From Cylindrotheca closterium (lineage: Eukaryota; Bacillariophyta; Bacillariophyceae; Bacillariales; Bacillariaceae): a DNA stretch of 64,000 nt. The stretch covers positions 182,737 through 246,736 of the forward strand of contig CAKOGP040000446.1 in the NCBI GenBank assembly GCA_933822405.4, in the 5' to 3' direction. Below are positions 10,866 to 45,370 of the stretch, one piece after another. The position numbers were made by a program, and so were the translations under genes. The notes below the pieces were generated by a model. The model searched no databases. It saw only the letters and a list, made by a program, of their open reading frames with translations, and had not been told where the DNA came from. The first letter of the stretch is position 1, and every line of letters starts with the position of its first letter.

Positions 10866-12398
10866 ATGCTACGACGCGGATGTATACGGGTAAAGCTTCC
10901 CGAAGAGACAGAACTCCAAGGATCCCTCACCTTCAAAAAAGGCAATCGAGATAAGACTTGTAGAGGTGGAGAGACTGCTAATTTTGTATTTCGCCCGTCC
11001 GATGGCTACCTGTCGTTGAGGACAAGAATTCAAACACTTGCAAGAGCACGGCGAGAAGGACAGCCTGCTCTTCCCCTTGGAGACAACTTTGCGATATTTT
11101 TCAAGCGCTGCAAGAATGCCATTCAATCTCAGTTGGTGGAGCTGACAGCGGTCAACTTTATGGACCTACTGAAATCCCGCTGGTGCAGGATCCCGGACTC
11201 GGACGTTACCACTGCAGTTCGAGAAACAACCTTTGAGTTTTTTGTCTACTACATACCACCACAAGTCCAGGCTGGAGATTCCGCAAATCCAAATCCAAAT
11301 CCAAATCCAAATCAAGAACTAAGGCAAAACGAACGATTTGGAGCTGCGGGAGAACTTCCCGAAGACGTGGTAGAACTCCAAGGATCAGTCACATTCAAAA
11401 AAGGGAATCGAGAAGGGAAACCTCGAGGTGGAGAGACTTCAAATTTTGTATTTCGAGCGTCAGATGGTTACCTTTTATTGAGAGCAAGAGTCGTAACACT
11501 TGCAGGGCAACGAGAAGGGCAGCCTCCTCCACTTTCCGACGACTTTACGATATTTTTCAAACACGCTAAGCATGCCACCCAAAATCAATTTGTGGAGCTC
11601 ACAGCGGCTAACTTTATGGACCAGTTGAAAACCCGCTGGTCAAGAATTACGGCATTGGATATGGCAACTTTTAACGAATCGAACACCACACCTGTGCGAG
11701 GGACAACCTTTGAGTTTTTCATCTACATACCGAGACGATCTCAGGCGCGACGGCGAATAAGAACGACCAAAAAAAATCCAAATCCAAATGGAAACCCAAA
11801 CCCAAATCCAAACCCAAATCCAAATCCAAACCCAAACCCAAATCCAAACGCAAATCCAAACCCAAACCCAAATCCAAACCCAAACCCAAATGCAAATCCA
11901 CCACATCCAAATCCAAATCCAAACCCAAATCCACCAAATCCAAATGCAATTCCACCACATCCAATTGCAACTACAAATCCACCATATCCAAATCCACATC
12001 CACCACATCCAAATGCAAATACAAATGCACAATATCCATATCCATATCCAAATACAAACCCACCACATCCACATCCATATCAAAATTCACATTATCCATA
12101 TCCGTATCCATACCCGCCCTATCCCTTTCCACGTCCACGCCCAAATCAACAAGAGACGCAAAGGCAAAACGAATCTGTAGCACCGGCAAGAAACAACAAC
12201 AATCTAGAGCTTCTTGGGGATCAGGCGGCGGCAGCTGCAGAGCGACAACCACCCAACGCCAGCTTCATTAGGCCTATTCAAATAGAGCTGAATGGAACCA
12301 TGGTGGAGATTGGTGTGGACGTTCGGTCTCTTCGTAGGGCCCTTGGGTTTCCACCAGAGGGACCTATCGTCTTGATGGGAGATCCGCGTCATGCATAA
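10866..12398 (+). CDS. Unrecognised protein: duplicated ~120-aa domain plus long Asn-Pro repeat tract
   Basis: A 510-residue open frame from an ATG. The same domain occurs twice: residues about 13-130 (ELQGSLTFKKGNRDKTCRGG .. FVFRPSDGYLSLR .. FAIFFKRCKNA .. VELTAVNFMDLLKSRW .. TTFEFFVYY) and about 172-300 with the same landmarks. A short (NP)4 tract follows the first copy. A long tract follows the second (about 11780-11960), built of Asn-Pro pairs encoded by alternating aatcca/aaccca hexamers. It grades into His/Tyr/Pro-rich repeats up to about 12150. The C-terminal ~80 residues are non-repetitive (FIRPIQIELNGTMVEIGVDV), which argues that the frame is translated. No signal peptide is evident. 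Function is unknown. The repeat DNA also opens long frames on the opposite strand, which are artefacts. Confidence 0.75.
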   Translation: MLRRGCIRVKLPEETELQGSLTFKKGNRDKTCRGGETANFVFRPSDGYLSLRTRIQTLARARREGQPALPLGDNFAIFFKRCKNAIQSQLVELTAVNFMDLLKSRWCRIPDSDVTTAVRETTFEFFVYYIPPQVQAGDSANPNPNPNPNQELRQNERFGAAGELPEDVVELQGSVTFKKGNREGKPRGGETSNFVFRASDGYLLLRARVVTLAGQREGQPPPLSDDFTIFFKHAKHATQNQFVELTAANFMDQLKTRWSRITALDMATFNESNTTPVRGTTFEFFIYIPRRSQARRRIRTTKKNPNPNGNPNPNPNPNPNPNPNPNPNANPNPNPNPNPNPNANPPHPNPNPNPNPPNPNAIPPHPIATTNPPYPNPHPPHPNANTNAQYPYPYPNTNPPHPHPYQNSHYPYPYPYPPYPFPRPRPNQQETQRQNESVAPARNNNNLELLGDQAAAAAERQPPNASFIRPIQIELNGTMVEIGVDVRSLRRALGFPPEGPIVLMGDPRHA

Positions 12399-14268: not shown

Positions 14269-14283
14269 CTCACAATTTCTGAT
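14269..14283 (+). promoter_or_regulatory. Shared CTCACAATTTCTGAT element
   Basis: This element lies 71 nt upstream of the first acidic-protein ATG. A CTCACAAT core recurs 45-78 nt upstream of all five genes of the cluster (14269, 15180, 16271, 17170, 18143). Its short distance to the ATG suggests an initiator or leader element. Confidence 0.5.
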
Positions 14284-14339: not shown

Positions 14340-14843
14340 ATGCGCTCTTCTACTGCGGCCGTCCTCCTTCTTGCTCTCTTGCTCAGCGCCAACGCCGAAG
14401 CCGGCCAATGGCAACATTCACAAAACCGAAAGCTATCCAAGAAGTCTTCCAAGAAGTCGGCAACCGTTGCCATGGCCTCTGCACCTGTCGCCGCACCTGT
14501 CGCCGCTCCTGTCATGGCGACTCCAGCCAGCGCGTCCAGCATATCCAGCGCCAGTAGTGACGATACCCCAGCTGCTGCACCTGTCGCCGTTGTACCAGTT
14601 GCAGTTATGCCAGTGGCTGCCACCAGTTACGGTGGTACGCCAGTCTCTCAACCTGTCGCAATGCCCGTTGCAGAAATCACCTTGGCTACTGTCCCTGTCG
14701 CTCCAGTAGTCACAGCAGGCGCTGCAGCCGCAGATGATGATGACGATCTTTGGGACGACGATGCCGATGATGATCTTTGGGATGACGATCTTTGGGATGA
14801 TGATCTTTGGGACGATGACGACTCTGATGATGATGACGCCTAA
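14340..14843 (+). CDS. Secreted acidic Asp/Trp-repeat protein, copy A
   Basis: 167 residues, one exon. The order is a signal peptide (MRSSTAAVLLLALLLSANAEA), then QNRKL (an R-x-L site), then the Lys/Ser cluster SKKSSKKS, then an Ala/Val/Pro-rich linker (APVAAPVAAP, VVPVAVMPVA), and an extremely acidic tail with DDDLWDDD units (four Trp). It is nearly identical to the gene at 16347 and close to that at 17215. No known domain applies. The layout resembles diatom cell-wall or biosilica proteins that are cut at R-x-L and carry Lys clusters, but this is inference from composition. The acidic tail could bind calcium or polyamines. The Ala/Pro linker is likely extended and unstructured. Confidence 0.85.
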   Translation: MRSSTAAVLLLALLLSANAEAGQWQHSQNRKLSKKSSKKSATVAMASAPVAAPVAAPVMATPASASSISSASSDDTPAAAPVAVVPVAVMPVAATSYGGTPVSQPVAMPVAEITLATVPVAPVVTAGAAAADDDDDLWDDDADDDLWDDDLWDDDLWDDDDSDDDDA

Positions 14844-14998
14844 ATCACCTCAGTGTGCAAGGATGTTTGGCATGGCTCGCTACATTGTCTGAAGCGAGGT
14901 TGTGCTGCAATGTGATCATTAGGGAGGTTCTCATCTCCCACCAGTGATTCTGTATAGTAGAAATAACATAAGCAGGTTCCAATTCAAATAGGATGATT

Positions 14999-15004
14999 TG
15001 ACGT
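14999..15004 (+). promoter_or_regulatory. TGACGT bZIP-type site
   Basis: TGACGT lies 253 nt upstream of the ATG at 15252. It matches the core of the CO2/cAMP-responsive elements described in diatom carbonic anhydrase promoters. A single hexamer can occur by chance; its support comes from similar sites in the neighbouring promoters. Confidence 0.35.
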
Positions 15005-15158
15005 TCTGAAATAGTTTTTCGCATTCAGTCAAATTGTTCGACAAGATAGTTCTTCAATCGCGTCGCCACTACGTCGGCTTGCGCTCAATCGCCAAAACTA
15101 CCTTTTTCACATGGCCGTTGGATCGTACCCGTAACGGTAGTCCCAAAACCAGAAAGTA

Positions 15159-15196
15159 TGACGCAAATCTTTCGCCAATCTCACAATCTTTGATTT
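15159..15196 (+). promoter_or_regulatory. Conserved promoter block TGACGCAAATCTTTCGC + CTCACAAT
   Basis: TGACGCAAATCTTTCGC is followed within a few bases by CTCACAATCTTTGAT. The same 37-nt block occurs at 17149-17185 with few changes, although the proteins downstream differ. A TGACGCAAA core also occurs at 16110. The arrangement suggests a bZIP-type site next to a start-site element. Confidence 0.55.
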
Positions 15197-15251
15197 GCAC
15201 ATCAATCACACCAGATTGATCGATTCAATACACACATACACATATATCACC

Positions 15252-15593
15252 ATGAACACCACTACATTCCTTCTCTTCGCACTCTTGCTCAGTGTGAACA
15301 CACTTCTGTCTGTTGAAGCCAAGTCTATCCAACGGAAACTCACCAAGAAGGCCACCAAGAAGGCTGCTGTTCCTACTCCTCCACCAACACCAGCCCCAAC
15401 ACCATTCCCCACACCAGCCCCAACACCTCCTCCAACTATGATGGCCACAGTGGCAGCCACTGCCGCGGCCACTGTCGCAGCAGCTGGTCTTGATGACGAT
15501 GATATGTGGGATGATGACGCGGATGATGATCTTTGGGACGATGACATGTGGGACGACGATGCTGATGACGATGATTGGTCATCGACGGACTAG
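15252..15593 (+). CDS. Secreted acidic Asp/Trp-repeat protein, divergent member
   Basis: 113 residues from the ATG at 15252, which opens directly into a signal peptide (MNTTTFLLFALLLSVN..VEA). It keeps the family order: QRKL (R-x-L), LTKKATKKAA (Lys cluster), a low-complexity linker and an acidic tail with DDDMWDDDADDDLWDDD units. The linker is Pro/Thr-rich (PPPTPAPTPFPTPAPTPPP) rather than Ala/Val, so only the layout is conserved. That is good evidence that the layout is under selection. The protein ends in DWSSTD. It lies between copies A and B. Extracellular location is predicted; the molecular role is unknown. Confidence 0.82.
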   Translation: MNTTTFLLFALLLSVNTLLSVEAKSIQRKLTKKATKKAAVPTPPPTPAPTPFPTPAPTPPPTMMATVAATAAATVAAAGLDDDDMWDDDADDDLWDDDMWDDDADDDDWSSTD

Positions 15594-16039
15594 ACTGTGT
15601 CTGATATTTGCCAACGCGCCCGAAGCAAGAACATTTTCTAGCCTCATTCATGTGGGCAGTTCGTATAAGCAAAAATGCTAGACCGGGGGGTGGGTACTCC
15701 AAGATCCAATTTGAATGTACCTGTATATTAATAATTTCGAAATAATACTGTTTTCAAGGTGATGAGTGAATGTAAGTTTTTGTTTTAGACAATAGTTCAA
15801 TTCACTGCACACCGGTGATCATACTACCACGCACAGCTTCGCCAGCTTCTCAGTCTCCCGAAGGCTAATATTCGATAGTACCTTCTTTGGTAACCGTATA
15901 GAAGAGAATGACCACGAGAAAGAATCAATCAATCACGATCAATGAATGAATCAATGAATGACATTGAATCGATCACATCAAATCAAGATCGTAAATCAGT
16001 AGGTATTGCAGTGGCGCGACCATAAATTTCTTCGTTGAC
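15594..16039. other. Intergenic, no gene seen
   Basis: Contains scattered AATC/AATG short repeats near 15920-15980. No gene was recognised. Confidence 0.5.
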
Positions 16040-16118
16040 ACGTCATGACATTTCCTTTTCCCTTCGTGCACCAATATGGTGCACCGACAACTTTTCCCGC
16101 GAGAAACCATGACGCAAA
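16040..16118 (+). promoter_or_regulatory. Promoter region with ACGTCA, a perfect hairpin and TGACGCAAA
   Basis: GACACGTCA (ACGTCA at 16040-16045) is followed by the inverted repeat GTGCACCA-ATA-TGGTGCAC at 16066-16084, then TGACGCAAA at 16110-16118. All lie 229-307 nt upstream of the ATG at 16347. The reverse complement of GACACGTCA recurs at 17055 in front of the next gene. Confidence 0.4.
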
Positions 16119-16270
16119 CGCGTCGATTCTTATGCGGAGATGCCACAAGTGCGCCTTACATGTCTCAGAAGCCATCGCATCATATGTGTCCCTGCTACGC
16201 TACGTGTGCTCCCACGTTGCACAAAAAAGTCGGAAAAGGCAAAACAATCCCTTCTGCTGAACAATTTGTG

Positions 16271-16950
16271 CTCACAATTTCTGATCTTGCCCATCTTGCA
16301 AATCTACCAAACCATATCACCACAGAACACACAAACCAAATAAGCCATGCGTTCTTCTACTGCTGCCATCCTCCTTCTTGCTGTCTTGCTCAGCGCCAAC
16401 GCCGAAGCCGGCCAATGGCAACATTCACAAAACCGAAAGCTATCCAAGAAGTCTTCCAAGAAGTCTGCAACCGTTGCCATGGCCTCTGCACCTGTCGCCG
16501 CACCTGTCGCCGCTCCTGTCATGGCGACTCCAGCCACCGCATCCAGTGTATCCAGTGCCAGTAGTGACGATGCCCCAGCTGCTGCACCTGTCGCCGTTGT
16601 ACCAGTCGCAGTCATGCCAGTGGCTGCCACCAGTTACGGTGGTACGCCAGTCTCTCAACCTGTCGCAATGCCCGTTGCAGAAATCACCTTGGCTACTGTC
16701 CCTGTCGCTCCAGTAGTCACAGCAGGCGCTGCAGCCGCAGATGATGATGACGATCTTTGGGACGACGATGCCGATGATGATCTTTGGGATGACGATCTTT
16801 GGGATGATGATCTTTGGGACGATGACGCTGACGATGATGACGCCTAAATCACCTCAAGTGTGGAAGGATGTTTGGCATGGCTCGCTAAATTGTCTGAAGC
16901 GAGGTTGTGCTGCAATGTGATCATTAGGGGGGGTTCTTATCTCCCAATCA
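16271..16950 (+). repeat. Duplicated segment, second copy (pair at 14269-14940)
   Basis: Near-identical to the segment at 14269-14940, including leader and 3' flank. The two differ at scattered positions and by three bases in the Asp tail. Confidence 0.8.
16347..16847 (+). CDS. Secreted acidic Asp/Trp-repeat protein, copy B
   Basis: 166 residues and nearly the same protein as the gene at 14340: signal peptide MRSSTAAILLLAVLLSANAEA, R-x-L in QNRKL, SKKSSKKS, Ala/Val/Pro linker, and a tail with four DDDLWDDD units. Changes are mostly conservative (Val/Ile in the signal peptide, a few linker substitutions, and SDDDD to ADDDD at the end). A CTCACAAT element lies 76 nt upstream. Copy B's more distant upstream sequence differs from copy A and carries the bZIP-like sites, so the two copies may be expressed differently. 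Confidence 0.85.
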   Translation: MRSSTAAILLLAVLLSANAEAGQWQHSQNRKLSKKSSKKSATVAMASAPVAAPVAAPVMATPATASSVSSASSDDAPAAAPVAVVPVAVMPVAATSYGGTPVSQPVAMPVAEITLATVPVAPVVTAGAAAADDDDDLWDDDADDDLWDDDLWDDDLWDDDADDDDA

Positions 16951-17054
16951 GTAAATCTGTACATAGCAAACAAAATCAAGACTCTCGCGTTCTGAAATAG
17001 CTTTTTTTAAAATTATCTTTTGACACGACTCTTCATCTGCGGTCCGGCAAAACT

Positions 17055-17060
17055 TGACGT
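17055..17060 (+). promoter_or_regulatory. TGACGT bZIP-type site
   Basis: TTGACGTGTC lies 160 nt upstream of the ATG at 17215. Its reverse complement, GACACGTCA, occurs upstream of the preceding gene. Confidence 0.4.
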
Positions 17061-17148
17061 GTCGGCTCGCGTAAACATCGCTCAAATCCTTTTTTATATA
17101 GAATGAACATTTCTATCACCACCAAAGATTCATTCCGCGAGGAAAAGG

Positions 17149-17185
17149 TGACGCAAATCTTTCGCTGATCTCACAATTTCTGATT
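17149..17185 (+). promoter_or_regulatory. Conserved promoter block TGACGCAAATCTTTCGC + CTCACAAT
   Basis: Nearly identical to 15159-15196. Here the block ends 30 nt upstream of the ATG at 17215, so transcription probably starts inside or just after it. Confidence 0.55.
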
Positions 17186-17214
17186 ATTTCAAAATCTCAC
17201 TCATTCGAATCATC

Positions 17215-17682
17215 ATGCGTTCTTCTACTGCTACCATTCTCCTAATCGCTATACTGCTCAGCTCCAACGCTGAAGCCGGCAAGTGGCAACATTCACAAAA
17301 CCGAAAGCTCTCCAAGAAGTCTTCCAAGAAGGCTGCAACCGTTGCCACAGCCTCTGCGCCCGTCGCCGCACCTGTTGCTAGCATGTCCAGTGTATCCAGT
17401 GTGAGTAGCGAGGATACCCCAGCTGCTGCACCTATCGCCGTTGTCCCAGTCGCCGTTGTCCCAGTTGCTTCCACCAGCTACGGCGGTACACCGGTCTCCC
17501 AACCTGTCGCAATGCCCGCTGCAGAAATTGCCTTGGTTAGCGTCCCCGTCGCTCCAGTGGTCACAGTTGCTGCTGCAGCCGCATATGATGATGATGATGA
17601 TGATGACGACCTTTGGGACGACGATGCTGACGATGACGACGACATGTGGGATGATGATGATTCTGACGACGATGATGCCTAA
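17215..17682 (+). CDS. Secreted acidic Asp/Trp-repeat protein, copy C
   Basis: 155 residues. It is related to copies A and B: signal peptide MRSSTATILLIAILLSSNAEA, QNRKL R-x-L site, SKKSSKKA, and an Ala/Val/Pro linker shorter by one block. The acidic tail has only two Trp (DDDLWDDD, DDMWDDDD) but longer Asp runs. Its ATG lies only 45 nt after the CTCACAAT element. Variation in number of Trp units and length of Asp runs between the copies points to slippage within an otherwise conserved design. Extracellular, function unknown. Confidence 0.85.
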   Translation: MRSSTATILLIAILLSSNAEAGKWQHSQNRKLSKKSSKKAATVATASAPVAAPVASMSSVSSVSSEDTPAAAPIAVVPVAVVPVASTSYGGTPVSQPVAMPAAEIALVSVPVAPVVTVAAAAAYDDDDDDDDLWDDDADDDDDMWDDDDSDDDDA

Positions 17683-18017
17683 ATTACTTCAAACGTCTTT
17701 GGTGGCCCTCTCCAATACCTGTGATGGCCTCGATTGTTGTCTGTATACTGGTGCTAATTTTATCTTCCTAGTGACCGAATGAAGAACCTGTTGCATGTTT
17801 CGCTGCAGTTTCTAGGAGTATTGAAAAGACGAAGAGTTGCAGGAGAGGGAGGCTTTTTGACTCTCCTACGCTACAAATTTGAACAGTGATGATAAAAAGA
17901 TAATTCATAGTCATCATGTCACATGAGTATTTAGTGTCTACTGGATTGAATACTACAAGCAGTTATTGAGCGATAGTGAGCATGAGTAGCAGAGCAGTTG
18001 TTACCGCACAGAAGGCG
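17683..18017. other. Intergenic, no gene seen
   Basis: About 335 nt of spacer between acidic-protein genes. No gene or named motif recognised. Confidence 0.5.
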
Positions 18018-18023
18018 TGACGT
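18018..18023 (+). promoter_or_regulatory. TGACGT bZIP-type site
   Basis: GTGACGTTTGCACC lies 203 nt upstream of the ATG at 18221. A CTCACAAT element follows at 18143, 78 nt before the ATG, as in the other cluster members. Confidence 0.35.
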
Positions 18024-18220
18024 TTGCACCTCCCACCTCCAACTATATCCAACGCTCGTTATTTAGGGGACAAAGTATTTTTACGGAGTATCAACGCAGG
18101 GAAAATGTCGTCGCTGAAATTTGCAAACTAACTTTCCGATCACTCACAATTTGAAATTTCACGTTGGCATCAGTAGCAACCTTTTGTCCACCGTACAATC
18201 AAGCAACAAAGTATACCATT

Positions 18221-18346
18221 ATGCATACTTCGACTTTTACTATCCCGTTGCTTCTCTGCGCCTTGTTGGTTTGTGCCATGTATCTCGCTCAAAGCACGCC
18301 CAACGGCAGCAGTGCTGCTGCTGCTGGTAGTAGTAGTGGCATAATG

Positions 18347-18384
<38 letters not shown>

Positions 18385-19390
18385 CGGTCCCAAGCAATAC
18401 TTGAAGCGAAGACTTCCGAGGAACCTCTTGAATGAAAATGTGACCACAGATGTTCTTGTTGTCGCTGAAACTGACGACGATGCTGACGATGACGATGACA
18501 TGTGGGACGATGATGCCGATGACGATGATGATATGTGGGACGACGATGCTGACGATGACGACGACATGTGGGACGATGATGCCGACGACGATGATGATGA
18601 TATGTGGGACGACGATGCTGACGATGACGATGATGATATGTGGGATGATGATGCTGATGATGACGATGACGATGCCGTCCTAGATGCTGATGGTAGTAAC
18701 TCCACCGACATCAGCAATGTGAATAATACTGCTGTTCCTGCTGAAAACATCACCGATACCAACATCACCGGCACCGACGCGACCATCACCGCGGTACCAA
18801 GCAACGCTACCCTCGTTGATAGCAATGCTACTACCGAAACCACCGATGTGACTGCTACTACAGCGGTATCACCGAGTAACGCTACAATTCTAGACACAAA
18901 CGCTATCGAAATCACCGACGCCAACATCACGACGGCAACAAGCAACGCTACCCTCCTAGAGAGCAATGCTACCGAAATCACCAATGCGACTACCACTACA
19001 GCGGTACCAAGCAACGCTACAATTCTGGATGGAAGCCTTACCGAAATCAGCAATGTGACCACCACTACTCCTCCTGTTCCTATCGTTGCTGAAAACACCA
19101 CCGACGTTCTTGATGTCCTCATTACTGAAAGTACCACCGACTCCAACATCACCGAGGCACCAGTAACGATTCCATCGAACGCGACAGAGGATGACGACGA
19201 TGATGCCATGTGGGACGACGATGCCGATGACGACGATGATGACATGTGGGACGACGACGCCGATGACGACGATGATGCCATGTGGGACGACGATGCCGAT
19301 GACGATGATGATGCCATGTGGGACGACGATGCTGACGATGACGATGACATGTGGGACGACGATGCGGATGATGATGATGACAATGCTTAA
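18221..19390 (+). CDS. Large secreted acidic protein with two Asp/Trp blocks around an N-glycan-rich centre
   Basis: 389 residues from the ATG at 18221; an upstream ATG in the same frame is less likely because it delays the signal peptide. The order is a signal peptide (STFTIPLLLCALLVCAMYLA), a Ser/Ala/Asn segment with a 13-residue Asn run encoded by (AAC)n, the basic LKRRLPRNLL with two R-x-L sites, and an acidic block of five DDDxWDDDADD units. A central ~160 residues made of degenerate repeats (PSNATLLDSNATEITDxT) is rich in N-x-T/S glycosylation sites. A second acidic block of five Trp units ends the protein. No Ala/Pro linker or Lys cluster is present. The two acidic blocks are so repetitive that the opposite strand is open for over 1 kb, which is a coding artefact. 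Confidence 0.83.
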
Positions 19391-28529: not shown

Positions 28530-31500
28530 TTACTCTTTCCCCTTACTGCTGTTGTAGTTCTCGATAAATTCCTTGACAAGCTCCTCTCCCTCTCGCACCC
28601 ACTCCGCCCGATTCGCCATTGCATAGTTCAAATACTCATGCGATGATACCCCAAACACGCCGCAGTTGTCCAGCTTCTTAGCCAAAGGGATCACATAAAA
28701 GTCAAAGAAACCGATCTCTCCTTTGTACCAGTTGATACTAGGATCGACATCTGCCCGACCCGACTTGTACGCTTTGTAGCATTCGCAAAAGAACTTTTCG
28801 TTCCAGCTCTTGTAAATGTACCAATGCTGCATTGTATGCGCTACGTCGGAGGCTTGGATCAAGTGCTCGATCACAATGGTCGCCTTGCGGTCCTGACTCT
28901 CTTCGGACTCCGATTCTTCAGAGGAGGACGATGCTGGTTCTTGAACCTTGTCGGAAAACGCAGTTTCCCAACGTTGCTTGCGAAGCGCTTGCAATTCCTT
29001 GTCCACAATGTCAGTAGCCATGACTGTGTTCACCACCAGCTGACGGAAACGCCGAAGCTCTTCTTCAGTCTGATAGATGCAGCTTCGCAAGGATTGGTAC
29101 TCGTCTTTCATTAGAATCGTCCATGCAATGTCGACGCTATTCTGCTCCGCCACTGACTTGTTCTTGTACAGCTCAGCATTTGGAGCGCCTTCCTTCACCA
29201 ATTGGGCGTTTGGTACACCTGGGTGATCCAAATCATGAATGATGGCGGAAAACACGACAGCAAACTGTGTCAGTGGATCGGAAGTAATCCCGTACGAATG
29301 ACCGGCCAAGTCGACCATGTTCACTCCGCTGTTTCCATTCTGCTGTGTGAGTCCATTGCCACTGTCGACGTTGACGATGCGTTTGAGCAATTTCTTCACG
29401 GATGCGGTGACGTGGCTAAAAGTGCAATAAAATGAGAACGAGGCAAATTATTCAGTTAGATCGACAAAAGCATCAGTCTGTGCGGAATCATCGAAGGATC
29501 GGACTTACCTAGCATGTTCAAAGTTGTGGAATGGGTTGCTGTCTGTGTACAACTCGGCAATATTGGAGAGGAAGCGTCGTAGCTCTGACTTGATATCACT
29601 CCCTATGTCAATCGAGTTGTATCCATGTCGACTGTCGTTCAAATCACTGTCAGGTCTCTTCAAGTGAATGATAGGTACGAACTCTTCCAAGATGGTTCGA
29701 CCAGATCGAATGTTGGATTCAACGACCTGTAGAGGCTTGATGCTCTTTCGAGATCCTCCTCTTGTAGCCACTATTTGCTGCAGCAGCGGGCTGAGAACTT
29801 CAACATTCCACTCGACGAGGCGCTCGATTTTGTTCATATTTTCGATGCCGTTCATGTCCAAAAGGTCGTCGCCCTTGTCTTTGATGTCTTCGGAAGAGCT
29901 GAAGGAGTCCTCTACTGTTTCTTCTTCGCTAATCGTCGAGTCGATTAGCTGAGTATTACTCTTTGTTCTAAGACGCTTCGAATCCGTTGAACGGAGCCAG
30001 TAGGTTTGCATTTCTCCCTTGCCTTTGACAAGGGTCTTCCGTCCACGAGGTATGGTCATGTTATCAAAGCCCCCTTCTTTCAGCAGATCAGCAGTGGTCT
30101 GTGAGATCTGAATGCAGCTCGCCCTTCCGGTACTCTCCATTCGAGCAGCTGTATTCATGGAGTCACCAAAAAGCTGGAAGCGACTGCGTTCGCCTCGCAA
30201 TACACCGGCCGTCACTTGACCACTGACACAAAAGCGAAAGGTTGTGTTAGTCTTGCCGTCAGTTTGTTTGTCCAATATCGTATCGTATCGTATCGTATCG
30301 CATCTTGACTCACCTGTGAATCCCAACTCTCAGTCTCAAGCCCGACGTATCAGGACCGAGCGTTACATCGAGTTTCAGAGTAATCTCTTTCATCTTCTTC
30401 AAGCAGTCTCGAGCGAATTTGCACGCCGCCACTGTTTTATCAAAGGCAACAGATACGTGAGTAAAGTGTTTACTTCCACATGTACACTCATCAAATACCA
30501 CTTACCAGCATGCTCTTTCATCGGCTCTGGCAAACCAGTTGCTGCGACGTAGGAGTCTCCAACCGTTTCAACTTTGAACACATTGTGTCGGTAAGCTACT
30601 CTATCAAAGGCTGCATAGATCATCTCCAGTAATGTGAAGACTTGTGGTGGCTCCCGAGCCGACGCCCACGCAGTAAAGCCAACAATATCAGCAAAGATAA
30701 TCGTCACATCAGGGAACAAGTCTGCCATTGGTGCTCCCTGTGAGGTTCTGTCAGTTTCGCCGTCAATATCAAGGAAATCGGAGTCGTTTTCTTTGCCAAT
30801 GCCATCATAAAGTCGATTCCGAATCGCCGTAGGAAAGACATTAGCAACAATTTGATCTTGCATTTTGATGCGATCCATAACTTTTCTCTGTTGAAGAGGT
30901 ACGCATAGGTGAGAAATCAGAAGTCCATTCAAGGCATTGCTGTGAATGAGCGGAACAATTCTTACCTGTCTCTGTCCGACAAAATAATCATACAGCAAAA
31001 ATACGAGACTTGTGAACGCAAAGATGGCAATGACCACTCCTGCATATAGGAATCGTTTGGACGTATAGAAGGCCTCCTCGAACTTTTCGGTTGGGTAGAC
31101 GTGGAGTGAAAGTTTGGGAATACACTCACCACTGACAATCTTTGACGAATCAACATCAAGATCCACAAGAGTGGACGCGACTTCGAGAGAGTCAAACTGT
31201 GGATCATGCGCATCGTATTCGCCCAGAAAAGTGGCATCCGGTCCATTGATGTCGTAGCTGACAACATTTACCTCTTCCTCAGAGACACTTTGTTCATTGT
31301 ATACATTCCACCTTGGGCAACTGTTCCGAAGAACAACAGTAATAGAATCCGTTTCCTCGTTGAACAAGTCTTCGAAGTACGTTGTCCATTCCAACGACAA
31401 CCAAGCAACTGCAACCATTTCCCTGTCCTTTGCTGCTGTATCAACAGTCTTGAAAATGGGTTGCATGATCTGGCTTGAAACCAAAGGCCGAGATTCACCA

Positions 31501-32444
31501 CCCTCCTCGATACGTGACTCCGAAAATCCGATGGTAGCATTTAAGGTAGCATTGGTGAGATGGAAGAGTTCACTGAACTGTTTGATCGTCATCAGATCAA
31601 GATTTGTGAACGACCGCTGTGAGTTTGGTTCGATCTCAAACGGATAGTTTTGCCAAATGGGCAAGGCCGTGTCTTTTGATATTGTGAAATCGTGGTTATT
31701 TTCTGCGTCATAGTAGTAGATCATTGGGGTAGTCTTGGCCATGAGTTCATCAACTGTCGAATTGTAGCCTTCTGTGTCAATAACATCTTGATAATACACT
31801 GGAGCATCTTCCATGGTATGGACTGCCCATTGCGCAAGGTCAGCCTCGTTGACCACAGGTAAGAAGAGCAAGAGCTGGTGGTACAGAGCTTCAGGCATAC
31901 CAATGAGTTTTTGCAACGAGTGCGCCTTCGCCGAGAAATCACTGATGGTGACAAAAGGCCAGGTCTGGTTTGTTGATTTTGCTTCGGACGAAACGCTGAT
32001 CGAAAACGAGTCCAAGGCACTGAAAAGTTGATCAGTCTTTTGCCCTGTCACAACAAGAAACTCTGTGGCAGAGCTATGGAACTGCAAGTAAAGATAATAT
32101 GTTCCGTGAGCAGTCTGGTCTGGTTGATGGAGCAATCGTCGAAATCGATCTCTTACCTGGTCTTCAAAATCCTTTCGCTCTTGCTGCTCAACGAAAAGGT
32201 ACGTTGCAGTAGCAGTTGCACAAGCTGCAAGAAATAAAAAAAAAGCCACGAATAGCTTCGATCGATTGACAGCCTGTTGTTCTCGCATCGCAACATCGTG
32301 GTCATGAATGGACGAATCGGTCTTTTTTCTGTCGCCATAATCGTCTGCCGTAGAAGAATTAAAACCGGACCCTGAAGCAACTGAGATGTTGCCATGGGTT
32401 TGACCGCTTGTGCTGCTTTCTTCTAATGTGTTCTGATCTTTCAT
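28530..32444 (-). CDS. Receptor-type nucleotide cyclase fused to class I phosphodiesterase, copy 1
   Basis: Six exons (transcription order): 32157-32444, 30966-32081, 30506-30887, 30314-30431, 29509-30222, 28530-29415. The introns are 74-93 nt, GT..AG, and phases close exactly to 1167 residues. The layout is a cytosolic N-terminus, a membrane segment (about 63-85), a ~350-residue ectodomain, a second membrane segment (FLYAGVVIAIFAFTSLVFLLY, about 440-465), then a class III cyclase domain with metal Asp535 (FADIVGF) and Asp579 (VETVGD), and transition-state Asn658 and Arg662 (NTAARMESTG). A phosphodiesterase follows with HNFEHA and the metal site HDLDHPGVPN (His933, Asp934). Glu575 is guanylate-cyclase-like, but the partner site is Gln651 instead of Cys, so the substrate is uncertain. 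The same protein could make and degrade a cyclic nucleotide in response to an external signal. A (TATCG)5 repeat lies in the intron at 30223-30313. Confidence 0.9.
30276..30300. repeat. (TATCG)5 microsatellite in an intron
   Basis: Five perfect TATCG units in the fourth intron of cyclase copy 1. The other two copies have only a short degenerate version at the same place. Confidence 0.9.
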
Positions 32445-34873
32445 GGTTTCTCTGTTTTATGATGAATCGAAAAAGTGGCGAAATTATTGTGCGAAATTAT
32501 CTCCTGTAGACGAGCATGAATATTTTCGGACAAATCGTGAAAATGCAACCACGAAGTAGTTTACCATAAGTGTCTACAAGGCAACATTTAACGGCAAGTT
32601 TTCGTTTTGACGGAAGATGATACCGGACACCGTCCAAAATCGATGGGGTTTGTGAAATCCTTAAATCTGTGGTAACTTTTGACACACGCGGTCATTGTCA
32701 TATCGAGGATTTGATAGCAGTTGATTCTCACATATGGCATTGATACCACAATCTTAATGCAAAATAAGTGTGCTTGTTCACATCAGAAAGATTTGATACA
32801 TGTCAAAACCGTACACTCCACCATTGCACTTCAAGAAAGGAGGGCCTCTGTCTCTGTGCGGCAGAAGCTTTTCATGATGCATCAGAAACTTTGTGGTGCA
32901 TAATATCCGGAAGAGCCTCGTCAATAAAAATAAAAGTTTGTGATCAATGCAGTTTCGTTGGGGTGGACTGTTTTCGGCTCTTTTTCCTTCGCGAAACAAG
33001 AGCCAGGAGTAATTGTGAAGACTGAGAATAGACCGACTTTTTGTTGGTCCCGCTTAGGGACAATCAATGATCGCAATGCTATGATTGGCTCGAATTACTG
33101 TACCGGTAGTGAATTTTAATCTCCGCCAGTCCACCAACAGAGAGTGAATGTGCCAGAAGAGCGTTTTGTCCCGAGTAACATGATCAAATTGAAAATGCGA
33201 AGCGGTCGTGATTGCTAACCCGGTATCGGTACATATCCACATTGAATGAGTATGAATAACTTTTTGTGGAAGTGAAAATGCATGGACTCCAGATAGCTTT
33301 TTCCTGATTGATCTATCTCTTGTCAAGGCAGCGCATCTGATTGTGTGACCCTTTTAAAACGAAGATGAGGATTGATGAAGACTTCTTCCATTGACTCACT
33401 CCACTGGCTCCTTCACGATCGTAGGCGAGAACAGCCACCCGAGGTTGCAATCTCCGACTAGTCAACAGTAGAAGCCCACCAAGGCATCCCCGTGTCTTTT
33501 GAGGTCCGCCTGGCGGTGCCCGAAATGGGTTGTTTTCAAATATGGAGGCAATGGCACTTCCGTTACTTGTCCAAGCAAGGAATGAGTCTTTTGTCGGCTT
33601 ATTTCCAAACCATACCTTGGTTGCACTGGGAAATCTGGATCAATTCCCAAATTTGATGCCAGAATTGATTAAGATTCGCCTATGCAAAGTGGCACTTGGT
33701 GCCAAAACGTCAAAGTTGCCGTCTTATTTCAATCCGAGACAAACGCTTCGACAAGCTTCAGAGCCCTTCCTCCTTCATCGACATCATGATGGTCATCGTC
33801 CGACCACAGGCGATTGACGAACCTCTTCAACACGACAAGGATCAAGCTTTTCACAAAACATTCAGCTGAGGTCTCTTGAGGCGACTGATGGATTTCTCAT
33901 CCTTATATTCAATGGCTTGTTTGATCATTGCATTTGTCCCCCACGACACTATTTTCGACGAGAAGCATGGCTTCTCTTTGCTACACCATTCCTTTCGAAT
34001 ATTAGTTCGAGTCTGCCTGGTATATTTTTGCATCATCTTATACCATTCTTAGCGTAAACTGTACGAATGATTGATTCATGGGAAGCCTTTCTTCATAGCG
34101 CCGCGATGTGGCCTATTTGGTTCATTTTGCTGTCAATCACTTAAAATGCCCGCAAAAAAATCTGAATCATTTCGTTTGGTTCCAAAGCGGCAGCTGATGA
34201 GAGTGGTATTCTTTATTGTTAGTCTCTTAGTCGATGTTGGTTTTTTATTTATGGTTTCATCTTCCAAGAGGCTCATGATAGAATAATATTCAATATGTAT
34301 CATATCAGTTTAGGGCATTGATTTCAAGAAACACAGGCGGTCCTTGACTTTCAAATAGACTGCAAATCCGCTATCCGATGCTGTCAGACTGTGTGTCATG
34401 ACTGCTGATGGCGTGGTAGGAGAAGATGAAAGAGCATAGCAAACACAATACAATAAAGGTATATACTGTGCATGTAATAAATATGGATGAATATACCAGC
34501 GGTAGGCAAACGTATAGACGGAAGAAAGAGGTCGAACCAATGGACTCAATAGTGACTCCATGAACGACGGTAGGGCGACCGTCATCTCAGTATTGCACCA
34601 GCAACCTATGTCCGATCTACACATATCGAACTTGTGTGCAAGTATACTGACAGAAAGATAGAGTTATTTCACACCACAACCCACCAGAGTCACTCCAAGA
34701 AACACCAAGCAGAAGAACCCGAAAAGAAGGCGCCAGTTGGCTATCTTCGATAGTAATCACGTTCGTTTCGAATCAGTCCTTCTAGTCGGACCTCTAGCTA
34801 GGAATTGCGAATTTGATGAAATAATACGGTATAGCACAACATCGTATATCTACACCGAAATATCTATACCCAT
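32445..34873. other. Intergenic region between cyclase copies 1 and 2
   Basis: About 2.4 kb. Only short open frames without recognisable features (the best is 95 codons at 33530-33817). No transposon ends or long repeats were seen. The part next to 32444 carries the promoter of copy 1; an AAAAGTGGC motif near 32470 is also present upstream of copies 2 and 3. Confidence 0.5.
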
Positions 34874-37800
34874 CTTATGCCTTTAGATCCTAACAACAAC
34901 GAAATTTCAGCTCCTTTAAATCAATTGCTTTAGTGTTTTCCCTCACTTTTGTTGTAGTTCTCCATAAACTGCTTCACAAGCTCTCCTCCCTCTCGCACCC
35001 ACTCCGCCCGATTCGCCATTGCATAGTTCAAATACTCATGCGAGGATACCCCAAACACGCCGCAGTTGTCCAGCTTCTTAGCCAAAGGGATCACATAAAA
35101 GTCAAAGAAACCGATCTCTCCTTTGTACCAGTTGATACTGGGATCGACATCTGCCCGACCCGACTTGTACGCTTTGTAGCATTCGCAAAAGAACTTTTCG
35201 TTCCAGCTCTTGTAAATGTACCAATGCTGCATTGTATGCGCTACGTCGGAGGCTTGGATCAAGTGCTCGATCACAATGGTCGCCTTGCGGTCCTGACTCT
35301 CTTCGGACTCCGATTCTTCAGAGGAGGACGATGCTGGTTCTTGAACCTTGTCGGAAAACGCAGTTTCCCAACGTTGCTTGCGAAGCGCTTGCAATTCCTT
35401 GTCCACAATGTCAGTAGCCATGACTGTGTTCACCACCAGCTGACGGAAACGCCGAAGCTCTTCTTCAGTCTGATAGATGCAGCTTCGCAAGGATTGGTAC
35501 TCGTCTTTCATTAGAATCGTCCATGCAATGTCGACGCTATTCTGCTCCGCCACTGACTTGTTCTTGTACAGCTCAGCATTTGGAGCGCCTTCCTTCACCA
35601 ATTGGGCGTTTGGTACACCTGGGTGATCCAAATCATGAATGATGGCGGAAAACACGACAGCAAACTGTGTCAGTGGATCGGAAGTAATCCCGTACGAATG
35701 ACCGGCCAAGTCGACCATGTTCACTCCGCTGTTTCCATTCTGCTGTGTGAGTCCATTGCCACTGTCGACGTTGACGATGCGTTTGAGCAATTTCTTCACG
35801 GATGCGGTGACGTGGCTAAAAGTGCAATAAAATGAGAACGAGGCAAATTATTCAGTTAGATCGACAAAAGCATCAGTCTGTTCGGAATCATCAAAAGATA
35901 GCACTCACCTAGCATGTTCAAAGTTGTGGAATGGGTTGCTGTCTGTGTACAACTCGGCAATATTGGAGAGGAAGCGTCGTAGCTCTGACTTGACATCATC
36001 CCCCACATCGGTCGAGCTGTATCTTTGCCGACGGTCGTTCAAATCACTGTCAGGTCTCTTCAAGTGAATGATAGGTACGAACTCTTCCAAGATGGTTTGA
36101 CCAGATCGAATGTTGCATTCAACGACCTGTAGAGGCTTGATGCTCTTTCGAGATCCTCCTCTCGTAGCCACTATTTGCTGCAGCAGCGGGCTGAGAACTT
36201 CAACATTCCACTCGACGAGGCGCTCGGTTTTGCTCATGCCTTCCACACCGCTCATGTCAAAAAGGTCACTATCCTTGTCACCGACGTCCTCAGAAGAGCT
36301 GAAGGAGTCCTCCACTGTTTCTTCTTCGCTAATCGTCGATTCCATTAGTTGGTTGCTATTCTTTCTTTGAAACCGCTTCGAATCCGTTGAACGGAGCCAG
36401 TAGGTTTGCATTTCCCCCTTGCCCTTGACAAGAGTCTTTTGCCTACGAGGTATGGTCATGTTATCAAAGCCTCCTTCCTTCAGCAGATCAGCGGTGGTCT
36501 GTGAGATCTGAATGCAGCTCGCCCTTCCGGTACTCTCCATTCGAGCAGCTGTATTCATAGAGTCACCAAAAAGCTGGAAGCGACTGCGTTCACCTCGCAA
36601 TACACCGGCCGTCACTTGACCACTAACACAACAGAGAAAGGTTGTGTTAGCCGTGCTATCAGTTTGTTCGTCCAATATCGTATCATATCGTATCTTGACT
36701 CACCTGTGAATCCCAACTCTCAGTCTCAAGCCCGACGTATCAGGACCGAGCGTTACATCGAGTTTCAGAGTAATCTCTTTCATCTTCTTCAAACAGTCTC
36801 GAGCGAATTTGCACGCCGCCACTGTTTCATCAAAGGCAACAAGATATGTGAGTCCAAACTGGTTCGAAACTTGAACATTAAGAAATGGAGCTAGTTACTC
36901 CAAGAAACTCATCAAACAGTAAACTTACCGGCATGATCTTTCATTGGCTCTGGCAAGCCGGCTGCTGCGACATAACAGTCACCAACTGTTTCAACTTTGA
37001 ACACATTGTGTCGGTAAGCTACTCTATCAAAGGCTGCATAGATCGTCTCAAGCAAGTCAAAGACTTGAGGGGGCTCACGAGCAGATGACCAAGCGGTAAA
37101 GCCAACAATGTCAGCGAAGATAATGGTCACATCGGGGAACAAGTCTGCCATTGGTGCCGCACGTGAGGATCTGTCGTTTTCGCCGTCAATGTCAAGCGGA
37201 TCGACGCGTTCCGAGGATTTGCCCATGCCATCATAAAGCCGATCCCGAATTGCCGTGGGAAAGACATTCGAAACAATGAGGTCTTGCATTTTGATACGAT
37301 CCATGACTTTTCTCTGTGTATGACATCATAGTTGTTGGTGAGGAACAGGATTGCATTCAAAATTTCATCCGAGATATTGCTGTGAATGCACGGAGACAAT
37401 TTTAAAATGCTTACCTGTCTCCTTCCAACAAAAAAGTCGTACAGCAAGAAAACAAGACTTGTAAACGCAAAGATGGCAATGACCACTCCTGCATATAGGA
37501 ATCGTTTGGACGTATAGAAGGCCTCCTCGAACTTTTCGGTCGGGTAGAGATGTAGTGAAAGCTTGGGGATACACTCACCACTGGGTATCTTTGAAGAGTC
37601 GACATTTAGGTCCACGAGAATGGACGCAACCTCAAGAGACTCATATTTGGGGTCATGGGCATCGTATTCGCCCAGCACAGTAGCTTCAGGTCCATTGATC
37701 TCATAACTGATAACGTTCACCTCTTCTTCGGAGACACTCTGTTGATCGAATAAACTGTATCTCGGGCAGCTGCTGCGGACAAGAAGTGTAATTGCATCGG

Positions 37801-38980
37801 TCTCCGCGGTAAAGAAGTTTTCGAAGTATTGCGTCCATTCCATCGTAATCCAAAGAATTGCAACCAATTCCTTTTCGTGTTCCGTTGTCTCAACATTCTT
37901 GAAAATGGGTTGCATGATCTGGTTTAAAACTAATGGTAAAATGTCGCCATTCTCCTCTTTCAGTGACTCAAAAAGTCCGATGACAGGATTCAAGGTTGCA
38001 CTAGCGAGATTGAAGAGTTCACTGGACTGTCTTGACGCAATCACATCAAGGTTGGTGAAAGTCCGCTGCGTGAATGGCTCGATCGCAAACGGATAGTATT
38101 GCCACATAGGCAAGGACGTGTCTTGTGATAGGGTGAACGCTTAACCATTTTCTTCGTCATAATAGTGGACCAATGGGGTGGTCAAGGCCATGAGTTCATC
38201 AACTGTCATATCGAAGGCCTCGGTATTAATAGCGTTCTGGAAATAGCCTCGAGCATCTTCCATCGTATGGGTCGCCCATTGTACGTGATCAGCCCCGTTG
38301 ACCACAGGCAAGAAGGCCATAGTAGCTCCAGGTACGTCAATGAGTTCTGCAAACAAGCGTACCTTCGTTGAATAGTCACTGATTGTAACAAAAGGCCAGG
38401 ATTGGTTTGTTGCTTTTGCTTCGGACGAAACGCTTACTGAGAACGAATTCAAGGCGTTGAAGAGTTGATCCGTCTTTTGCCTTGTCACAGCAACAAACTC
38501 CGTTGCATAGCTATGAAACTGCGAGTAATGATGACATGCAAAGTCAGCAACCTGATCAGACGAAAAGACAATTCATTGTCGTTCCGCCAATGAATCAATC
38601 ACTTACTTGATCTTCAAAGTCCTTTCGCTCTTGCTGTTCAACGAAAAGGTACGTTCCAGCAGCGGATGCACAAGCTGCGAGCAATAGAAATAAAGCCACG
38701 ACTAGTTTTGATCTATTGACAGCCTGTTGCTCATGCTTCGCAACATCTTGCTCTTGAATGGAAGAATTCGACTTTTTTCTGTTGTCGTAACCGTCCGCAG
38801 AAGAATTAAAACCGGATTCTGAAGCAACCGACATGTTGCCATAGGTTTGGCCGTTTGCGCTGACTTCCGTAACGCTGTTGTTGTCTTCTGTTATGTACTG
38901 CTCGTTCATTGTTGCACCTTTTATGTGGCTCCAATTCTACGAAGCACAAAAAGTGGCAGATGTGAAACTCCGCCGGACAA
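34874..38980. repeat. ~4.1 kb duplicated unit, first copy (pair at 40166-44272)
   Basis: Contains cyclase copy 2 from just downstream of the stop to its leader. It corresponds to 40166-44272 with a constant offset of 5292 nt at every landmark checked (stop, all splice sites, start codon), so no net length change has occurred. The left edge of similarity is the shared CCTTTAGATCCTAACAAC about 50 nt after the stop codon. Confidence 0.85.
34930..38909 (-). pseudogene. Receptor cyclase-phosphodiesterase copy 2 with an in-frame stop
   Basis: Exons by comparison with copies 1 and 3: 38607-38909, 37415-38518, 36929-37313, 36704-36821, 35909-36622, 34930-35815. All splice sites and phases are intact. 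Exon 2 has a TAA at 38141-38143, at the position of a Tyr codon (YDEENGYAF) in copy 3. It falls at about residue 227, in the ectodomain, before the second membrane segment and both catalytic domains. The remainder of exon 2 and the cyclase and phosphodiesterase exons are undamaged, and the last four exons are essentially the same as in copy 3, so inactivation is recent. A sequencing error, a polymorphism or readthrough cannot be ruled out. If translated, the product would be a single-pass fragment of the receptor. Confidence 0.75.
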
Positions 38981-40165
38981 TTAAAATGCGTTTTCTCTTC
39001 AAGAAGAAAAAACTCTACTGTAGGGACAAGAGTGAGAAAATCGTGAACGTTCCATTAAATATATAAATGGTTTCACGTTTACAAGTGGGAGCAAAACTCT
39101 TCTCTAGAAAGGCCGGGAACACGGGTCGCAATGGTCGGCCCCGGGTTCAAAGTCGGGCTATATTGTAGCTTGGAGAAAGGCAAATAGTGTTTTCTCGAGG
39201 ATGCTATGAACAGGAAATAACTTGCTTTAAAATTCTGTAAAATGTCTATTTGGACCAAACGGGTAATATGGGTATCGTAGCTTCATCTCGCCCGCACAAA
39301 AACCCATCGGTACCGGCACGCGCTGTGCCGGTAGGTACCACAAGGGAACATATTTTAATAATATATCTACCGCGTGGCAAAGAGGCCTCATTACACCTAG
39401 ACTGGTCAAACAGAAATCATGGGGCCTATTTCATTCATTCAAAAAAGTCTCAGTGCCAAACTCCTATTTTTGTGATTTCACAACGTTAAATGAGAAGAAT
39501 CTAGTGCCATCTAAAAGCGAAAGACAGAAATCGATTTTCGGACGGCTTCTCTCTTGAAGCAGGATAAAACGCGTGTTGCCATTCCATTCATTACGTCTAT
39601 CACTTGCACGCGGGAATGACAGTTTGCTTACTGTATTGATTCGGCAGGCCGGATAGCAACAACGAACTCCAGATAGTGTGAAATGATGTGCGATTGAAGC
39701 ATTCATTCATATTGTCGTTGTGAACTGTAGGTAGCTTTTGAAAGCAGAAAGAATATGGTGGCAATACGATTGTGAGCTCTGGAGGCGAGTGGCAATAATA
39801 TTTATGTCTTTTTCATTCATAGAGAGCAGTGACTGTACGATTGTTCACTGGCTGAGGTGCCCCTCTGTCACACTGTTACTTCCTTCTTCTTCAGGGCCGC
39901 ATCAGTCAAAGTCCTTTCTCTTGAGTGTCCGGTTGGATCTGGGAAACTGTAGGCATTATGACTCCGCTTGCAAAATCATTCTGGAAAGGTCCGCCATGCA
40001 TGATGGTCTCTGTGTAGTCAGACTCTCCAAAACGTTGTTTGCCACCCAATTCCTTTCGATGGTACTGTAGGACTTGTGTGGAATATTCATTGCCTAATAA
40101 CACAACCTAAAACCTGGGACCTACGGTAGTACATATCTAGAGCAAAATATCAATAAAACTCCCCT
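38981..40165. other. Intergenic region between cyclase copies 2 and 3
   Basis: About 1.2 kb without a supported gene. Short frames are present on both strands but have no recognisable features. It is not similar to the spacer between copies 1 and 2. Confidence 0.5.
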
Positions 40166-44272: not shown

Positions 44273-45370
44273 CCCTCCGGACAAAAGTGTTTCGTCTTCT
44301 CAGCACAAGTCGTGGAAATGATCGTGAACCGCTCCATATGTGGTGGTATTTTTTCACTTCAGTGGGAACAAAACGCCGCGTTCCCCCATTAGCGAATCCG
44401 TCCGAAAATCGTTTTTTTGGTATCGCACTGGATTCCATTTAACGTTATGAAATCACAAACATAGAAGTGTGGCTCAGACACTCGCTTCGTAAACAATGAA
44501 ATTGAAAATGCTAAGCCCCCCGAATTCTGGTAACCGAAGCTATGGGCATAAAGCCTCCATGCTGCGGCAGATTGGGGATATGACATTTTATACCTACAGT
44601 GAGTGACCGGCCCATATACAAAATATGCCTCAGATGGACCGCTCACTGTTTGAGTTTTATCGGTTGCAAACTGGCGATTGATTCGCGGGACCCCCCAGAA
44701 CTCGTCCGTCAATCGACCGGTTTCCAGAAATGAAAGAACTCGTCGATTTCTTTGACTAGAGAGGTGCCTAAAGTACGCTTGCATGTATTAATACCGGTAC
44801 GAGTATACTGTAACAATTTTCGTCCTGAACCGGTCGTATTACATGTATTGACAGCGATATATGGGTACTGTATCGATCGTCGATGTAATGAAAGCCGCAA
44901 CAGGCTTTACCATATTTCGTTTCAGGCAATGAAACTGATAATCATGGGAGTGATTTAAAATTAAAAAGATGACGGGTGTATGTAAGACAATAACACCGCT
45001 GAGCGGAATGCATCAGAAGTCTCCTCTTCTACTATATCATGATCATCATAGCCAGGCTGAAAATGCTGCTGCAGCCACTGGCCGCGACCGGATCCAGATT
45101 CGAAGCAAGAATCACATAATAATACATTATTATCCGGAGGGATAGAAAGCATTGATCCAGTCATTGAGAGCAGAACTTGCATAGAGCACGAACGCACATC
45201 ATGTATGCGGCTCTGCACTTGGGGCTGTAGCGACGACTGCCAGCGTGTTAACACTACCGGTACTCTGATACGCGGGAAAACCCGAAACTTAAAAAAAATT
45301 TGAAACGGCTATCAGAATGAAGAGTTGTAAAAGTTGCAGAAAGGACGAACGAATTGCAGTCGCACTTTGA
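44273..45370. other. Intergenic, no gene seen
   Basis: Upstream region of cyclase copy 3. Several frames of 60-130 codons overlap on both strands without recognisable features. Confidence 0.5.

Follow-up and report, generated by a model that had tools for sequence, protein, structure and literature searches.

Silaffins were first described in the diatom genus Cylindrotheca, and the repeat units of Sil1p from Cylindrotheca fusiformis start with SSKKSGS after an RIL. Here we analysed a 64,000-nucleotide stretch of Cylindrotheca closterium DNA (contig CAKOGP040000446.1, positions 182,737 to 246,736 of the forward strand; hereafter the window, whose own numbering is used below), in which five adjacent genes between 14340 and 19390, genes 1 to 5, encode predicted secreted proteins with aspartate/tryptophan (Asp/Trp) tails. 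In genes 1, 3 and 4, RKL is followed by SKKSSKK. Judging from their sequences, we see an even chance that the five products are secreted, intrinsically disordered matrix proteins of the diatom wall.

The RXL tripeptide recurs in silaffins, silacidins, cingulins, frustulins, silicanin-1 and SAPs, where it marks proposed, not proven, cleavage sites (PMC4557024, PMC5525289, PMC5647440; papers are cited from excerpts of their text throughout). A pentalysine cluster, defined as five non-consecutive Lys in 12-14 residues, is described as important for silica targeting, and Si-responsive proteins carry Pro/Thr repeats (PMC5501833). Silacidins are acidic phosphopeptides that aid polyamine-driven silica formation in vitro, and in Thalassiosira their phosphorylated forms have been proposed as the polyanion working with polyamines; dephosphorylated silaffin precipitates silica at acidic pH only when phosphate is supplied, and the RXL-bearing frustulins join silica only once it is formed (PMC4557024). 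According to PMC12533330, silaffins and silacidins lack conservation even between species of Thalassiosira. Asp-based motifs have also been reported as enriched among unannotated differentially expressed proteins of Entomoneis vertebralis under aluminium (among PMC4557024, PMC5501833, PMC9650480, PMC4220933, PMC5525289, PMC5647440 and PMC12533330).

Five adjacent genes with Asp/Trp tails

Each of the five open reading frames (ORFs) is a single open frame from ATG to stop on the plus strand. The ORFs and the motif counts bear out the first-pass annotation in its description of five adjacent plus-strand genes with Asp/Trp tails. The genes and their parts are as follows (lengths in amino acids, aa; basis in brackets).

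14340..14843, plus strand: gene 1, 167 aa; putative signal peptide, then RKL, KKSSKK, a Val/Ala/Pro (V/A/P) spacer and the Asp/Trp tail (ORF, composition)
14427..14456, plus strand: gene 1 RKL and lysine cluster, RKLSKKSSKK (composition, repeat family)
14736..14840, plus strand: gene 1 Asp/Trp tail, 4 x DDDLWDDD (pattern match, composition)
15252..15593, plus strand: gene 2, 113 aa; putative signal peptide, then RKL, KKATKK, a Pro/Thr-repeat spacer and the Asp/Trp tail (ORF, composition)
15333..15362, plus strand: gene 2 RKL and lysine cluster, RKLTKKATKK (composition, repeat family)
15369..15437, plus strand: gene 2 Pro/Thr-repeat spacer (ORF, repeat family)
15492..15584, plus strand: gene 2 Asp/Trp tail, 4 Trp, 3 as DDDxWDDD (pattern match, composition)
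16347..16847, plus strand: gene 3, 166 aa; recent copy of gene 1, protein 96% identical (ORF, comparison)
16434..16463, plus strand: gene 3 RKL and lysine cluster (composition, repeat family)
16743..16844, plus strand: gene 3 Asp/Trp tail, 4 x DDDLWDDD (pattern match, composition)
17215..17682, plus strand: gene 4, 155 aa; an older copy, with 85% identity to gene 1 (ORF, comparison)
17302..17331, plus strand: gene 4 RKL and lysine cluster (composition, repeat family)
17587..17679, plus strand: gene 4 Asp/Trp tail, 2 x DDDxWDDD (pattern match, composition)
18221..19390, plus strand: gene 5, 389 aa; two Asp/Trp blocks on either side of a sequon-rich Thr/Asn region, preceded by a hydrophobic N terminus, an Asn run, RRL and RNL (ORF, composition)
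18407..18427, plus strand: gene 5 RRL and RNL (composition)
18473..18673, plus strand: gene 5 Asp/Trp block A, 5 Trp (pattern match, composition, codon-phase analysis)
18692..19186, plus strand: gene 5 region between the two blocks, where 16 of the 18 NxS/T sequons lie (composition)
19190..19384, plus strand: gene 5 Asp/Trp block B, 5 Trp, 2 in strict DDDxWDDD (pattern match, composition, codon-phase analysis)

The order of parts is common to genes 1-4, which all have the lysine cluster, and RXL occurs in all five proteins, in each case downstream of the putative signal peptide. The N termini of genes 1-4 passed a crude hydropathy test for a signal peptide and that of gene 5 was judged by eye. 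RKL starts at residues 30, 28, 30 and 30 in genes 1-4, where five Lys fall within nine residues counted from its K; in gene 5 the motifs come later, RRL at residue 63 and RNL at 67. Genes 1, 3 and 4 have a V/A/P-rich spacer and gene 2 a Pro/Thr repeat. Past the proposed RXL cut the net charge of the five proteins ranges from -17 to -123, and in genes 1-4 the first 12 residues after the RKL carry +4 and the tail -21 to -24. No Lys or Arg occurs in the tails. A fold prediction for gene 1, made from only 4 sequences, gave a mean predicted local distance difference test score (pLDDT) of 47.5 and one N-terminal helix only, in keeping with a mostly unstructured, disordered protein. The Pfam scan of the five proteins returned no family above the curated cut-off; we discarded the weak matches as low-complexity noise (GDSL lipase, 0.012, in gene 2; EED insertion, 0.0023, TIR-like, 0.026, and DUF2448, 0.084, in gene 5).

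The five proteins hold 27 Trp rather than the 24 first counted as their total, but 24 do sit in the Asp tails; the other three are QWQ or KWQ just past the signal peptides of genes 1, 3 and 4. The residue before the tail Trp is Leu in 10 cases and Met in 13 (23/24), and 20 of the 24 fit DDDxWDDD strictly, the exceptions being three DDAMWDDD in gene 5 and one DDDDWSS in gene 2. At the DNA level, GAY3-NNN-TGG-GAY3, which codes DDDxWDDD, had 20 matches in the 47.6 Mb assembly, every one inside the cluster, with none on the opposite strand and none for the reversed-pattern control. The looser DDxWDD pattern had 36 genome matches, 20 in the cluster and 16 outside. When the letters of each tail were shuffled 20,000 times, with gene 5 represented by block A only, the observed D[LMA]WD count was reached in fractions of 5e-5, 0.002, 0.0003, 0.0065 and 0 of the shuffles for genes 1-5, respectively. 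Outside the cluster, two DDxWDD matches lie 129 bases apart on the minus strand of C176 (12247-12393).

Genes 1 and 3 are near-identical in their upstream, coding and downstream DNA, pointing to a recent tandem copy. Since genes 1, 3 and 4 are tandem copies, the cluster represents three independent designs, not five. The earlier statement that all the linkers differ therefore does not hold, as there are three linker types, and the idea that the layout itself is selected is weaker than claimed, three of the five genes being copies of one another.

The copies nevertheless inform on selection, with the caveat that gene conversion could have lowered synonymous divergence (dS) between them. Between genes 1 and 4, non-synonymous divergence (dN) is 0.076 against a dS of 0.62 (dN/dS 0.12), and their tails differ by 12 synonymous codon changes and one non-synonymous change; the corresponding dN and dS values are 0.016 and 0.095 for genes 1 and 3, and 0.081 and 0.50 for genes 3 and 4. 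Across 23 aligned repeat cores (first 7 codons; units within one tail are not independent), the mean entropy at codon positions 1, 2 and 3 was 0.14, 0.08 and 0.79. The cluster genes thus encode real proteins, with purifying selection on genes 1, 3 and 4. One might instead suppose that GAT/GAC-rich low-complexity DNA repeats have been expanding here, in frame by chance and with little function. The tails are indeed tandem repeats, the gene copies are recent, and opposite-strand ORFs stay open across the repeats too. However, this explanation sits poorly with variation that falls mainly at the third codon position, with the dN, dS and tail changes between genes 1 and 4, and with the conservation of RKL and the N termini outside the repeats. 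We consider it highly improbable, a DNA-repeat artefact being largely ruled out by codon phase and dN/dS. The opposite-strand ORFs (up to 353 aa) are regarded as by-products, because it is the third codon positions of the plus frame that vary.

Lys-rich and Asp-aromatic proteins in the same genome

Searching the genome with gene 1 retrieved a Lys-rich secreted protein on contig C545 (E value 0.0066). A search with this protein gave 32 matches (frames were read on C545, C485, C540, C224, C179, C68, C246, C435 and C35), which included other Lys-rich proteins as well as gene 1 (E 0.0014) and gene 3 (E 0.0029). The Lys-rich proteins share with the cluster a hydrophobic N terminus and a V/P/A spacer, and R(R/K/Q)L lies near the N terminus in 8 of 16 distinct genes, the other 8 being without it. 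Where the cluster has Asp/Trp, their tails are instead rich in Lys, Ser, Gly or Ala, with stretches such as KGKGKGGSSAKGPKSAKGPK, SSKGSSSKSSK and KGKGG, and resemble the lysine-enriched regions reported for cingulins (PMC9650480).

Only one other gene was found with three Asp-aromatic units in one tail, and there the aromatic residue is Tyr. This gene (C485:107412-108509) encodes what by eye looks like a membrane-anchored protein whose tail of DDDLYDDDADDD-type units follows an N-terminal domain shared by a family of at least 110 matches; the frames of many relatives run to about 700-1400 aa, against 370 for this gene. Its fold prediction was uninformative (mean pLDDT 36.5). In a metagenome relative (59% identity), EDDDEFDDDADDDD, with a single Phe, lies close to the end. 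Based on these two sequences, an aromatic residue within Asp may persist while its identity changes. The Phe version of the pattern gave 5 scattered single matches genome-wide (control, 0). Asp-aromatic stretches occur singly elsewhere too, as in a protein that looks plastid-targeted by eye and contains DDDMFDDDDSDDFYDD (L016 1483-2454).

Protein searches with the cluster genes (E 0.01, 7991 candidates scored) found no relative, not even the genes themselves, and gene 5 residues 84-152 (E 1, 7988 scored) had no match, itself included. The same kind of search with the C485 ORF recovered that protein among the Cylindrotheca closterium NCBI proteins (100% identity over 366 aa). Therefore, the deposited protein set is probably without the cluster genes or holds models of other length, compositional filtering being an alternative reason for the empty searches. 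The stricter pattern DDD-[ATK/CTK codon]-W-DDD-A-DD or DDD had no match in the prokaryote genome collection or in viral contigs. In the open-licence literature, six literal cluster motifs gave no text match, and no description of an Asp/Trp wall protein was found, as judged by titles and abstract openings. The Sil1p repeat had no match in this genome in a search run without a positive control.

A proposed wall-matrix role and its alternatives

One close likeness is to silaffins and silaffin-like proteins (SFLPs; Sil1p, from the same genus as the present host, and TpSil3): like them, the cluster proteins have a putative signal peptide followed by RXL, Lys-rich KK pairs and predicted disorder. 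Silaffins, however, have repeated lysine clusters, whereas genes 1-4 have one short cluster each, and the charge of the cluster proteins is mostly Asp, in Trp-bearing tails. The repeated KXXK (X = S or G) used as a screen in PMC5501833 is absent: we found one KSSK in each of genes 1, 3 and 4, KATK in gene 2 and none in gene 5. Cingulins (CinW, CinY) combine a Lys-containing part with a Trp- or Tyr-rich part (PMC4557024), and this genome has both Asp/Trp and Asp/Tyr versions; yet cingulins alternate Lys-rich and aromatic sequence repeatedly, while genes 1-4 have a single Lys head and a single polyaspartate aromatic tail and gene 5 has no Lys cluster. Silacidins are, like the cluster proteins, secreted-type, RXL-containing, repetitive and acidic (PMC4557024), but their charge depends on phospho-Ser, and we found neither their Ser- and acid-rich repeats released at RXL, the RXL sites here all being N-terminal to the repeats, nor the acidic Cys-rich domains of frustulins (0 Cys in genes 1-4 and 2 in gene 5, both within its N-terminal hydrophobic stretch). 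Judged by sequence, then, the cluster proteins carry the RXL mark of biosilica-associated proteins, and genes 1-4 appear to come near the pentalysine mark. With RXL present and the tested defining features of silaffins, cingulins, silacidins and frustulins absent, they are best placed within that broad class and outside the named families.

Our best reading is that these proteins may be polyanionic counterparts of silaffin-like proteins, acidic and with aromatic stickers, which would condense together with polyamines and Lys-rich proteins. They would enter the endoplasmic reticulum (ER) through the signal peptide, and an RXL endopeptidase would cut off a pro-piece. The mature chain of genes 1-4 would then begin with a cationic head, SKKSSKK or TKKATKK, continue through a neutral V/A/P or P/T spacer and end in a polyanionic tail with Leu-Trp or Met-Trp stickers. 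The head could act as an address for silica or for the silica deposition vesicle. The tail would pair with long-chain polyamines and Lys-rich sibling proteins, and the aromatic stickers could lend cohesion to the condensate inside the acidic vesicle. The resulting scaffold would give silica, or its organic coat, its form. Gene 5, with no lysine head, two Asp/Trp blocks and a glycosylation-prone middle, might be a bridging member. The wall or biosilica role proposed in the first-pass annotation gains from the RXL after the signal peptide, the five-lysine cluster of genes 1-4, the Pro/Thr spacer of gene 2 and the Lys-rich proteins with V/P/A spacers, while the wall location itself stays a prediction. 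For chitin, also named there as a possible ligand, no pointer turned up in an analysis that included no binding test aimed at it.

Several observations weigh against this role. The marks are not exclusive to the cluster, RXL occurring in residues 23-70 of 5 of the 21 other window ORFs and at least five Lys in 14 residues in 4 of them. Gene 5 is without a lysine cluster, and in genes 1-4 the five or more Lys in 14 aa are partly consecutive pairs, while the published pentalysine cluster is non-consecutive (PMC5501833). The N-terminal half of CinW2 is still targeted to the frustule after deletion or mutation of its lysine-rich regions (PMC9650480), so that targeting by a lysine cluster is not proven. 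The tails of genes 1-4 have 0-2 Ser, unlike silacidins with their phosphorylated Ser. The V/P/A similarity that links gene 1 to the C545 protein is a weak one, carried by low-complexity residues, and DDDxYDD is not enriched genome-wide (17 matches and 17 in the reversed control). Finally, co-regulation of the cluster with the Lys-rich genes through a shared upstream element is weakened, the element being general in this genome (235 matches against 10, see below).

The strongest alternative, though in our view a rather unlikely one, is that these are cell-surface or mucilage proteins serving gliding and adhesion of this raphid diatom and not silica; the Asp runs would bind Ca2+ and crosslink polysaccharide, Trp would make hydrophobic contacts and the middle of gene 5 would be a mucin-like spacer. 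The 18 sequons and two Asp/Trp blocks of gene 5 fit this, as do the three Asp-aromatic units of the putatively membrane-anchored C485 surface protein with its large family, and RXL is also found in frustulins, which join silica after its formation (PMC4557024). On the other hand, RKL and the lysine cluster of genes 1-4 resemble silaffin-type signals, Cys is confined to the gene 5 N terminus, and no Pfam family passed the cut-off. The high Asp content, the net negative charge past the RXL cut and the lack of a recognised enzymatic domain would suit polyanions with a storage or chaperone-like role in the lumen of the ER, Golgi or vacuole, which would keep Ca2+, polyamines or cationic proteins there until use and exit the cell only in part. 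We regard this as quite improbable, since it leaves the cationic head without a role and the C termini (ending in DDDDA, SSTD or DDNA) show no KDEL-like ER-retention signal.

If the cluster is the acidic partner in Cylindrotheca, the polyanion would be gene-encoded Asp with aromatic stickers and not phospho-Ser, and the cluster would offer a small, cloneable set for testing the effects of charge pattern and stickers on silica form. A bolder and distinctly unlikely extension is that the genome holds a pair of secreted block-polymer sets, mirror images of each other and both built as signal peptide, RXL and V/P/A spacer, of which one would end in Lys-rich tails and the other in Asp tails with Leu/Met-Trp stickers. 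On meeting in the silica deposition vesicle they would form a complex coacervate, with pH and the aromatic stickers controlling how it sets, and Trp and Tyr versions would serve different parts of the wall. If true, silica shaping here would rely on a two-component polyelectrolyte system encoded in the genome.

An upstream element and other genes in the window

Comparison of upstream motifs placed a short element before each cluster gene.

14269..14278, plus strand: CTCACAATTT element, starting 71 nt before the gene 1 ATG
15180..15189, plus strand: CTCACAATCT element, starting 72 nt before the gene 2 ATG
16271..16280, plus strand: CTCACAATTT element, starting 76 nt before the gene 3 ATG
17170..17179, plus strand: CTCACAATTT element, starting 45 nt before the gene 4 ATG
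18143..18152, plus strand: CTCACAATTT element, starting 78 nt before the gene 5 ATG

With at most one mismatch, CTCACAATTT lies upstream of 5/5 cluster genes. It was also present at 8/16 Lys-rich genes (16 distinct genes, after one artefact row of 17 was removed), against 0/18 other window ORFs, counted from unverified starts, and 3.1% of random 100-mers. The genome-wide counts given above are for CTCACAATTT-N30-60-ATG and its reversed pattern, and repeated elements are present among the matches listed. We keep the element in the cluster only as a sign of real transcription starts. At 40-70 nt before ATG across the genome, CTCACAATTT is a candidate for a general promoter or initiator element in this diatom.

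Elsewhere in the window, a plus-strand ORF of 510 aa (10866-12398) has long Asn-Pro repeats after an apparent duplicated domain and matched no Pfam family at E 0.1. The minus strand carries a tandem array at 28530-44438 with three near-identical 262-aa ORFs (28530, 34930 and 40222); of the two array ORFs scanned, the one at 34930 is a PDEase_I and the one at 30399-32444 has a guanylate-cyclase domain. On the plus strand, three similar tandem ORFs of 607-635 aa occupy 52839-60482, and Pfam identifies the first as a calcineurin-like metallophosphatase. A secreted-looking 756-aa protein (49560-51830, plus strand) combines long Cys-Gly-Ala repeats with an internal RRLQT and a YHYH domain, and is possibly another wall or surface protein.

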